Assembly: GCF_020515625.1 (NCBI RefSeq)
Contig: NZ_JAIWPJ010000001.1
Coordinates: forward strand, 1,674,001-1,738,000
From: Natrinema amylolyticum
Lineage (GTDB): Archaea > Halobacteriota > Halobacteria > Halobacteriales > Natrialbaceae
Reading direction: 5' to 3'
Length of the DNA: 64,000 nucleotides
Numbering within the stretch: position 1 is the stretch's first letter; every line of letters starts with the position of its first letter. Below the pieces are notes generated by a model, which was given only the letters and a program-made list of their open reading frames with translations, ran no database searches and was not told the origin of the DNA. Shown piece after piece: positions 32,946 through 58,302 of the stretch. Made by a program: the position numbers and the translations under genes.

Positions 32946-33074
32946 GGGAACCGCCTTCGCTGTCCCGGCCCAAGTATCCCGCCGCTCGAGGTGCGTCCCA
33001 GAGATGACCCACCGCTTCCCATCACCACCAGCTTCCGAGCCAAGCGTTTGTGTCTCGAGCCCGTTGACACGGAT

Positions 33075-33461
33075 ATGACCGACGCGACACTCGTCTACGA
33101 TGACGACTGCGGCTTCTGTACGTGGTGGGCGGAGTACTTCGACGAGCGGACGGACCTCCGCATCGTCGGCTTCAGCGACCTCACCGACGACCTGCGCGAG
33201 CGGCTTCCCGACGAATACGAGGACTGCTCGCACCTGGTGACCGACGACGGCGTCTACTCCTGTGGGGCCTCGATCGAGGAGGCGTTCGTCCGCACGGACG
33301 TGGCCGAGCCCGCGGGGGAGGCGGTCGAGTTCCTCCGCCAGTTCGAGGACTACGAGCAGTTCCGCGAGCGAACCTACCGGTGGGTCGCCGACAACCGCGA
33401 TCGGTGGGGGAAGTACCTCTCGAAGACGCCGCCGGCGCGCCAGAAATCCGACGACGGCTGA
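33075..33461 (+). CDS. DUF393/DCC-family thiol-disulfide oxidoreductase-like protein
   Basis: A 128-residue protein. It starts TDATLVYDDDCGFCTWWAEYF, carrying the DCC signature D-x-x-C-x-x-C just after a first beta strand, as in the DUF393 family of thioredoxin-like proteins. Later segments GFSDLTDDLRERLPDEYEDCSHLVTDDGVYSCGASIEEAFVR fit the family too. Its redox role is inferred only from the CxxC; substrates are unknown. The family often lies near membrane HTTM proteins, and here a lipase-maturation/HTTM-like gene lies convergently downstream, which supports a link. Confidence 0.8.
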   Translation: MTDATLVYDDDCGFCTWWAEYFDERTDLRIVGFSDLTDDLRERLPDEYEDCSHLVTDDGVYSCGASIEEAFVRTDVAEPAGEAVEFLRQFEDYEQFRERTYRWVADNRDRWGKYLSKTPPARQKSDDG

Positions 33462-33483
33462 CCGAGCCAGCGACCACACGAAC

Positions 33484-33575
33484 ACCGCAAACGATCGGAA
33501 CCGCTCACCGCAAACGATCGGAACCGCTCACCGCAAACGATCGGAACCGCTCACCGCAAACGATCGGACCCGATC
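33484..33575. repeat. Four tandem 23-bp repeats between convergent genes
   Basis: The unit begins ACCGCAAACGATCGGAA and ends CCGCTC. Units are at 33484-33506, 33507-33529, 33530-33552 (identical) and 33553-33575 (two changes). The array runs from 22 bases after the DUF393 stop to the TGA of the membrane-protein gene, which falls on its last bases. Each unit has one CGATCG. There are no spacers, so this is not CRISPR. It could be a slippage product, a protein-binding array or a terminator region. Confidence 0.9.
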
Positions 33576-35034
33576 ACCGCGATCGCGGCCGGCGAACCCG
33601 TAACTCCTCGAGCGAGACCGGGCTCACGTACGTTCCGACGCGCTCGCGAGCCCACCAGCGGCCGCTCTCGGCCCGTTCCTCGGGCGTGGTATAGCGATAG
33701 CGGTACCGAACCGCGCGAACGCGTTCCGGCGGTTCGCCGTCGAAGGGATCCTCGGCGAGCAGGGCGAGCGTGTCCGCGTCGGCCTCGAGGAGCTTCGCCA
33801 GGAATCGGAGGAACCACGGGCTCCGGTGCGGGCTCGGCGACATAGCGGCGAACCACAGCTGCCAATCGAGCCGGAGGTGGTAGGGCGCGACCTGGGGCGG
33901 CCGTCGCTCGAGATCGGTCGGCTTCCCCTTGAATCGGTAGGCCCGCCACTCCGTCTCCGGCGTGATCTTCTCGTCGGTCGTCCCCTCGACGACGACCTCG
34001 TACCGATCCCGGGTTATCGACCCGAACGCGCCGTAGGTGTTGACCAGGTTCAGCGGATCGAACGAGGTGTTCATGAGCTGCCGTTCGGAGAGCATGTTTC
34101 GCACCGGCTGAACGCTCAGAACGATCACGAGCGCGGCCAGGAGGAGCGCCAGCGCCTCGAGATAGAGCGGCGTCGGCGCGGTCGCGGGCGCGGAAATCGG
34201 GAGCGCGGCCGCCAGCGTCCCGTCGCTGAACGTCGGAATCGCGAGCACGATCGTCAGCGCGTTCAGCCAGGCGAAGTTCCCGGTGACCAGTAGCCAGCCC
34301 TGAAAGCCGATCGTCGCCAGTCCGGCCAGCGCCGACAGCGGCTGGGGAGCGAAGTAGCAAAACGGTATCAGTAGCTCGATGACGTGATTTGCAACGGTCT
34401 CCACCCGATGGAACCGGTCCGGAAGGTGATGGGCGAACCAGCTCACCGGATTCGGGATCGGCTGGGTCTCGTAGTGGTAGTCCATGCAGGTCAGGTCCCG
34501 CCAGCAGTCGTCGCCGCGGAGCTTGATCAGCCCGGCACCGAACATGTTGCGAAAGAGCACCCACTGAAGGAGTAGGACAACCACGAACGGCGGTGCGACC
34601 GAGCCCGCCCCGAGAAAGATCGCGAGGAACCCGGTCTCGCAGAGCATCGACTCCCAGCCGTAGCCGTAGAACGTCTGGCCGGCGTTCACGAAGGAGAGGT
34701 ACAGCGCCCACAGCGTCGCCCACAGGAGCATCGAGACCGGCGTCGCGACGCCCGCCGGCAGCCAGTACGGCACCCCCACCAGCGCCAGCGCCGACAGCGC
34801 GACGCCGCTCCAGGCCGCGACCCCGATCGCCCGATCCGTCGGGACGAGATAGAAGAGGCTCGGTCGCTCCCGGAACGAGACGCCCTCGACGTACCGCTCG
34901 AGGGGCAACAGACCGTCCTCGCCGGCCAGCGGCCGGAACTGATTGGCTGCGACGAGAAAGGCGAGCAGGTACAGCAGCGCGAGTCCCCGCTGGAAGACGA
35001 CGCGGACGAGCCAGTAGCCCTCCCCCTGCCACAT
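33574..35034 (-). CDS. Lipase maturation factor / HTTM-like membrane protein
   Basis: A 486-residue multi-pass membrane protein resembling the LMF family and its HTTM relatives. Its features are GYWLVRVVFQRGLALLYLLAFLVAANQFRPLAG, then ERPSLFYLVPTDRAI, the loop AGQTFYGYGWESMLCETGFLAIFLG, the conserved LIKLRGDDCWRDLTCMDYHYETQPIPNPVSWFAHHLP, and the C-terminal domain GAFGSITRDRYEVVVEGT with the WRAYRFKGKP segment. LMF proteins help folding of secreted lipases in animals; bacterial and archaeal roles are not settled. ATG at 35034 is preferred over 35085 because a TTCTTTG box lies about 27 bases upstream. Its last bases lie in the 23-bp repeat array. Confidence 0.8.
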   Translation of the reverse strand: MWQGEGYWLVRVVFQRGLALLYLLAFLVAANQFRPLAGEDGLLPLERYVEGVSFRERPSLFYLVPTDRAIGVAAWSGVALSALALVGVPYWLPAGVATPVSMLLWATLWALYLSFVNAGQTFYGYGWESMLCETGFLAIFLGAGSVAPPFVVVLLLQWVLFRNMFGAGLIKLRGDDCWRDLTCMDYHYETQPIPNPVSWFAHHLPDRFHRVETVANHVIELLIPFCYFAPQPLSALAGLATIGFQGWLLVTGNFAWLNALTIVLAIPTFSDGTLAAALPISAPATAPTPLYLEALALLLAALVIVLSVQPVRNMLSERQLMNTSFDPLNLVNTYGAFGSITRDRYEVVVEGTTDEKITPETEWRAYRFKGKPTDLERRPPQVAPYHLRLDWQLWFAAMSPSPHRSPWFLRFLAKLLEADADTLALLAEDPFDGEPPERVRAVRYRYRYTTPEERAESGRWWARERVGTYVSPVSLEELRVRRPRSR

Positions 35035-35139
35035 ACGCGCCCGTAACTCCGCGAACGGGCAAAGAACTGACGCGTGCACGGACACACCCGCTCGACCGCC
35101 ACACCTGTTCGAGGAACACCGGTCCGTTCGCCGCGCCCG

Positions 35140-57633: not shown

Positions 57634-58302
57634 TTAGAAGAAGCCGCCGTCGGTATCGTCTTCCTCGTCCTCGTCGTCGTCCGCGCTCTCGTCGTCCGTC
57701 TCATCACCCTCGGTATCGGAGTCGCTCTCGTCGCCATCGTCGTCGTCATCGCTACCGTCCCCATCACCGTCATCACTACTGTCCTCATCATCGCTACTGT
57801 CATCGTCATCGCTACTGTCATCGTCGCTATCGTCTCCGCTTTCGTCCGCATCGGTCTCGCTGTCCGCGTCGTCATCGTCCTCGTCGGTGGCGTTCCCCTC
57901 CTCGAGTTCGCCGTCCTCGGACTCCTCGCCCTCGGTCGCGTCCGCGTCAGTCTCGTCGCCGCCGTCGCTCTCGTTGCCCTCGGGTTCGGTATCGCCGACG
58001 GTCGCGTTGTCACCGCTCTCGTTGCCGCTCCCGATTGCATCGGTTTCGGACTCGGTAGCCTCGAGATCCGTCCCCTCGTCGCCGTCATCGCTCTCGTTTT
58101 CGGAGCCGCCGGGTGTCGTCGCCTCGTCGTCGCCCTGCGTTCCCAGCGGTTCCGTTTCGCCGTCGGCCGCGGGCTCTTCGGCCGGCTCGGCGACGAACAG
58201 CTCCGGGCCGACGGCCGCGACGGTCAGCCCGAACGCCGCGAGGATGATCGCGGTCGTTACGAGGACGGTCCCGACCGACGACGCGTGTGTCTCTCCTGTC
58301 AT
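57634..58302 (-). CDS. Secreted or anchored highly acidic low-complexity protein
   Basis: A 222-residue protein. One hydrophobic segment at about 10-32 (VGTVLVTTAIILAAFGLTVAAVG) is a signal or anchor. Almost all the rest is Asp, Glu, Ser and Gly, with long runs such as DDSDDDSSDDDD. It ends DDTDGGFF. The Asp-rich tail likely stays disordered and binds water and cations. Its codon use is unusual because GAC/TCC runs dominate. Function unknown; typical of haloarchaeal surface proteins. Confidence 0.65.
   Translation of the reverse strand: MTGETHASSVGTVLVTTAIILAAFGLTVAAVGPELFVAEPAEEPAADGETEPLGTQGDDEATTPGGSENESDDGDEGTDLEATESETDAIGSGNESGDNATVGDTEPEGNESDGGDETDADATEGEESEDGELEEGNATDEDDDDADSETDADESGDDSDDDSSDDDDSSDDEDSSDDGDGDGSDDDDDGDESDSDTEGDETDDESADDDEDEEDDTDGGFF

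Follow-up and report, generated by a model that had tools for sequence, protein, structure and literature searches.

This analysis concerns a 64-kb window (the whole stretch of DNA analysed, G000:C1:1674001-1738000) of the haloarchaeal genome of Natrinema amylolyticum, which totals 4.71 Mb in 11 contigs, and in particular a 23-bp tandem array located between the 3' ends of two genes. One of these encodes a DCC1-like thiol-disulfide oxidoreductase (DCC), the other a lipase maturation factor (LMF). As the first-pass annotation had proposed, the two genes are convergent, with the array lying in the spacer between their stop codons. The features of the locus are as follows.

33075..33461, plus strand: DCC1-like thiol-disulfide oxidoreductase gene, 128 aa (PF04134, E 2.1e-13)
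33459-33461, plus strand: DCC stop codon
33462..33573, no strand: stop-to-stop DCC-LMF spacer, 112 nt (43 nt in the sister genome G015)
33483..33580, no strand: minisatellite of four full 23-bp units and a 6-nt partial copy
33483..33488, no strand: CACCGC, the left-hand member of the 6-nt direct repeat at the edges of the unit; misalignment is proposed to have occurred here
33483..33551, no strand: units 1-3 (33483-33505, 33506-33528, 33529-33551), identical, CACCGCAAACGATCGGAACCGCT
33552..33574, no strand: unit 4, which differs by two changes (GGACCCGAT in place of GGAACCGCT) and has A22 in common with the single unit of G015
33575..33580, no strand: partial copy CACCGC, which is the right-hand member of the 6-nt repeat and has an overlap with the stop codon of LMF
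33574..33576, minus strand: LMF stop codon, inside the array, TCA read as TGA on the minus strand
33574..35085, minus strand: LMF gene, 503 aa (PF06762, E 4.5e-61; PF25179, E 4.5e-51)

Structure and uniqueness of the array

Tandem Repeats Finder (TRF) places the array at 33483-33580 with a period of 23, 4.3 copies, 97% matches and a score of 182, the highest of its 16 rows for the window; there are no indels between copies, and the four full copies are followed by 6 nt. The unit matches the real sequence four times and a set of 100 dinucleotide-preserving shuffles not once. The first-pass annotation had described this same array with an offset of one base (33484-33575), and both its four 23-base copies and their composition, three perfect units and one with two changes, are borne out. 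It had also stated that the array ends at the LMF stop codon, which is accurate in that the stop sits at the border between unit 4 and the partial copy; the stop nevertheless lies inside the array, and TCA is present at each unit junction. The partial copy spans the stop together with the final 1 1/3 sense codons of the LMF gene. Minisatellites, or variable-number-tandem-repeat-type elements, consist of near-identical head-to-tail copies of a unit of about 10-60 bp. The array belongs to this class, its copies being near-identical and head to tail, its copy number differing between related genomes, and its origin being local.

According to the first-pass annotation, a unit found nowhere else, combined with a copy number that is unstable within one strain, would indicate simple slippage. 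The first of these two properties was observed, since a search of its own genome for the unit, with up to three mismatches allowed, returned these four places alone. When the search was extended to 125 genomes of the family, four contained any match, namely the array genome itself and three others with a single copy each, all at three mismatches, and no array of this unit was found in any other of the 125. A dispersed or mobile repeat (a miniature inverted-repeat transposable element (MITE), an SMR or a CRISPR repeat) was rejected because there are no copies elsewhere in the genome and no spacers between the copies.

Origin of the array

We compared 30 loci, our own and 29 from relatives, of which 13 hold both genes in convergent orientation in the stretch examined; the array is present in one of the 13. 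In the closest relative, G015 (DCC 93% and LMF 91% identical), the spacer measures 43 nt and carries one diverged unit-like stretch, and the difference between the two spacers (112-43 = 69 = 3 x 23) is exactly three units. Ten other convergent pairs have spacers of 8-35 nt without the unit (L023, one of them, keeps only a short piece of LMF), and the remaining pair, L029, has 649 nt between the genes. The single unit in G015 and the spacer shorter by exactly three units indicate, as judged from sequence comparison, that the array is a lineage-specific one-to-four expansion, and they support the recombination product (by slippage or unequal recombination) that the first-pass annotation had listed among its possible explanations.

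The one-unit version of the locus contains exactly one 6-nt exact repeat at a distance of 23, CACCGC, at the edges of the unit, and it is probably at this sequence that slippage or unequal recombination set off the expansion. The first 23-bp tandem duplication would have arisen between the two CACCGC copies, either because the polymerase slipped or through unequal recombination. Comparison with the sister shows that A18 is common to units 1-3 and A22 to unit 4, and it is from this pattern that the subsequent order of events is derived: each copy would have received a single substitution (left, A22C; right, A18C), after which slippage or unequal exchange involving the full-length repeats would have multiplied the left copy to three. 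The array would end on a stop codon because the end point of the duplication, the right-hand CACCGC, overlaps that of LMF, and the duplication would persist because no promoter lies in a spacer flanked by gene 3' ends on both sides and both reading frames are intact. The unit is 17/23 identical to the single copy in G015, versus 21/24 for the remaining spacer, and therefore nothing suggests constraint. In our view the array is most probably a minisatellite specific to this lineage, which originated when a short direct repeat lying across the LMF stop codon gave rise to a tandem duplication; it is also very likely young and neutral, with no regulatory role needed to account for it.

Arrays at the same junction in other genomes

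LMF is present in 39 of the 125 family genomes at E <= 1e-60, and the LMF 3' flank was examined in all 39. DCC lies in the stretch examined at 34 of these loci and is missing from it at five; 26 of the 34 pairs are adjacent and convergent (spacer <=130 nt), and the other eight have 649-1332 nt between the genes. With an array defined as at least 2.5 copies and at least 85% matches, four of the 26 adjacent pairs contain one in the spacer, namely our own (23 x 4.3) and the following three.

G125 (putatively Natronolimnohabitans innermongolicus): 27 bp x 3.8, with CTA, the stop of LMF, in the unit
G080: 15 bp x 5.9, with TCACAGC, the last codons and stop of LMF, in the unit
G084: 19 bp x 2.7 (weak), unit with the DCC stop, GCAGTGA

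These three units are unrelated to ours, and each encloses the stop codon of either DCC or LMF. A further array, 23 bp x 4.8, follows DCC in G032 (putatively Natronorubrum texcoconense; L031 and L055, at 1692-1802 of L031). Its unit, CTACAGCCCCGG..., agrees with the 3' end of LMF in relatives at as many as 17/22 bases and is likewise unrelated to ours. G032 is not among the 39 genomes with LMF at the above threshold, and its array seems to have outlived its LMF gene. No array was found in nine spacers whose genus names and kinship labels place them apparently outside the family (L030, L052, L057, L063, L064, L095, L097, L098 and L099); in the comparison that included these, two partial LMF matches with negative spacers (L068 and L082) were left out of the counts. 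A preferred repeat length of 23 was rejected, given that the parallel arrays have periods of 15, 19 and 27 and that the 23-bp unit of G032 is unrelated.

Insertions of another kind were seen in some DCC-LMF spacers. Two Natrialba loci (L246 and L247; spacers as in L071 and L070) carry an extra ~83 nt with inverted ends, TACGGTCTGCTGTAA ... TTACAGCAGTCCGTA, which is absent from the close relative L244 (spacer as in L075) and looks like a small MITE-type insertion. A MITE-like insertion with inverted ends CTATAGTAGCC ... GGCTACTATAG is located at the DCC stop of L016 (G007, putatively Natrinema thermotolerans) and is not in L020.

We also surveyed 1.664 Mb (35%) of the array genome, using gene calls from a simple caller rather than an annotation. 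The survey returned 23 arrays of at least 2.5 copies and at least 85% matches, eight of them non-coding (five between tandem genes, two convergent and one divergent; random placement predicts 21% convergent). Non-coding arrays of this kind are a minority feature of the genome. At looser limits (at least 1.8 copies, at least 80%), 12 of 30 non-coding arrays are in convergent spacers (P 0.015), and seven of the 30 cover a stop codon versus 16% expected (P 0.21), so a general enrichment of arrays on stop codons is not supported. The second convergent array (G000:C1:823080-823205; L131 3080-3205) is 32 bp x 3.9 and is flanked by a Cdc6-like gene and an M24 peptidase gene, its units holding the stop sequence of the latter, which is on the minus strand. 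Weaker, different repeats cover the same stop in two more of 12 loci, our own included in the 12, one in G015 (16 bp x 1.9) and one in G014 (18 bp x 4.2, 74%). Elsewhere in the window, at 57722-57825, 18-27 bp repeats lie in a minus-strand open frame and are probably a coding low-complexity region.

Several of these observations weigh against a young, neutral minisatellite that arose at CACCGC. With our own genome excluded, DCC-LMF arrays occur in 3/25 pairs versus 1/512 other convergent spacers (Fisher P 3.5e-4, in a post hoc test whose background spacers come mostly from genomes other than the positives), and other counts set against the same 1/512 give P 7.8e-4 (3/33) and P 6e-3 (2/25, with the weak G084 array dropped). 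Chance and neutrality alone would not predict such recurrence unless the site is slippage-prone. Moreover, the CACCGC microhomology alone is weak evidence: among 83-nt stretches of this genome, 57% contain by chance a 6-nt repeat with its copies 10-39 bp apart, and 1.9% contain one at a distance of 23. Finally, one genome per species was compared, and copy-number instability within species was not observed.

The repeated appearance of unrelated arrays suggests that the DCC-LMF junction is a permissive or slippage-prone site. It is possible, if on balance rather unlikely, that LMF and DCC have at their 3' ends a mutational hotspot prone to tandem duplication, for example through convergent transcription or short GC-rich direct repeats that lead to replication slippage, an explanation that would add to the minisatellite origin rather than oppose it. 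The independent arrays of G080, G084 and G125, each with a stop codon in its unit, the array of LMF-end-like sequence left in G032, the low background among other convergent spacers and the excess of convergent placements at the looser limits in our own genome all argue for such a hotspot. Against it stand the small number of cases, the post hoc comparison and the different genomes behind the background; in addition, the Cdc6-like/M24 spacer also has recurrent weaker arrays, so that the DCC-LMF site is not unique, stop-codon overlap is not generally enriched, and convergent arrays in the samples of the sister (2/7) and of G032 (3/7) are too few to judge. A broader and still more tentative proposal is that the DCC-LMF 3' ends are a recurrent birthplace of minisatellites in the family, where units unrelated to one another, 15, 19, 23 and 27 bp long and each with the stop codon of DCC or LMF, arose independently, whether by slippage linked to convergent transcription or because extra 3' spacer length is favoured, and where one array outlived the gene that seeded it.

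Function and comparison with known systems

A selective explanation for the recurrence would be that the arrays act as 3'-untranslated or termination buffers which separate convergent RNA polymerases or transcripts, in which case length and not sequence would count. Recurrence with unrelated units and different lengths fits this idea, as does RNA folding to some extent, the minus-strand transcript folding somewhat better than its shuffles (z -2.21, with 5 of 200 shuffles at least as good) and the plus strand being unremarkable (z -1.28). We nevertheless regard buffering as improbable, since most adjacent pairs have no array, with usual spacers of 2-60 nt, there is no sequence conservation, and the spacer lacks terminator signals. 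In Haloferax volcanii, terminators with a T stretch and AGATC motifs are expected near gene 3' ends (PMC7237163). Neither is found in our spacer, where runs of T reach a length of 1 at most on the plus strand and of 3 at most on the minus strand and AGATC is absent, and the locus has no terminator-like site. Together with folding only slightly above that of shuffles on the minus strand, this speaks against the double terminator entertained in the first-pass annotation, and the candidate was rejected.

The binding array that had been suggested in the same place, with a DNA-binding protein spaced at about 2.2 turns, fares worse than buffering. Regular spacing and the CGATCG core are in its favour. 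CGATCG is indeed present in each unit, as claimed, but it is not distinctive: it is among the commonest 6-mers of this genome (1,664,000 bases contain 3832 occurrences, fewer than the 4188 that its sub-words would predict), and its status as a special word was rejected. The unit is private to the locus, less similar to the sister than the rest of the spacer and missing from the ten short spacers of other relatives, the periods of the parallel arrays differ (15, 19, 23 and 27), and the location is at gene ends and not at a promoter, all of which make a binding array very improbable. A known structured RNA was ruled out by the lack of any Rfam match at gathering score in 33000-34000.

The minisatellite origin proposed above would make the array by itself ordinary, its main use being as a possible strain-typing marker, although the site at which it lies is possibly a recurrent one. 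Recurrence at one conserved junction, with single- and multi-copy states, unrelated units and a common stop-codon anchor, amounts to a small natural experiment on minisatellite birth. A non-exhaustive search of the literature found no description of this array. The nearest haloarchaeal counterpart is Haloquadratum walsbyi, in which indels bounded by 4-20 bp direct repeats and differences in short-tandem-repeat copy number between strains ('Indel_PolyRepeat') have been reported (PMC3119063). Our array resembles these in kind, as direct-repeat-bounded indels and short-repeat copy-number differences between close chromosomes; the authors mostly inferred deletions, whereas in our case the comparison with a sister points to an expansion, and between species rather than strains. 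A survey of prokaryotic satellites describes short tandem arrays at low density, Halobacteria included (PMC6749651); ours differs in being a 23-bp, intergenic array. The tandem repeats of Borgs are described as rapidly evolving, recently formed and independently arising in archaeal DNA (PMC9879509); Borgs are extrachromosomal and carry pervasive arrays, whereas ours is small, stands alone and sits on a 2-Mb contig.
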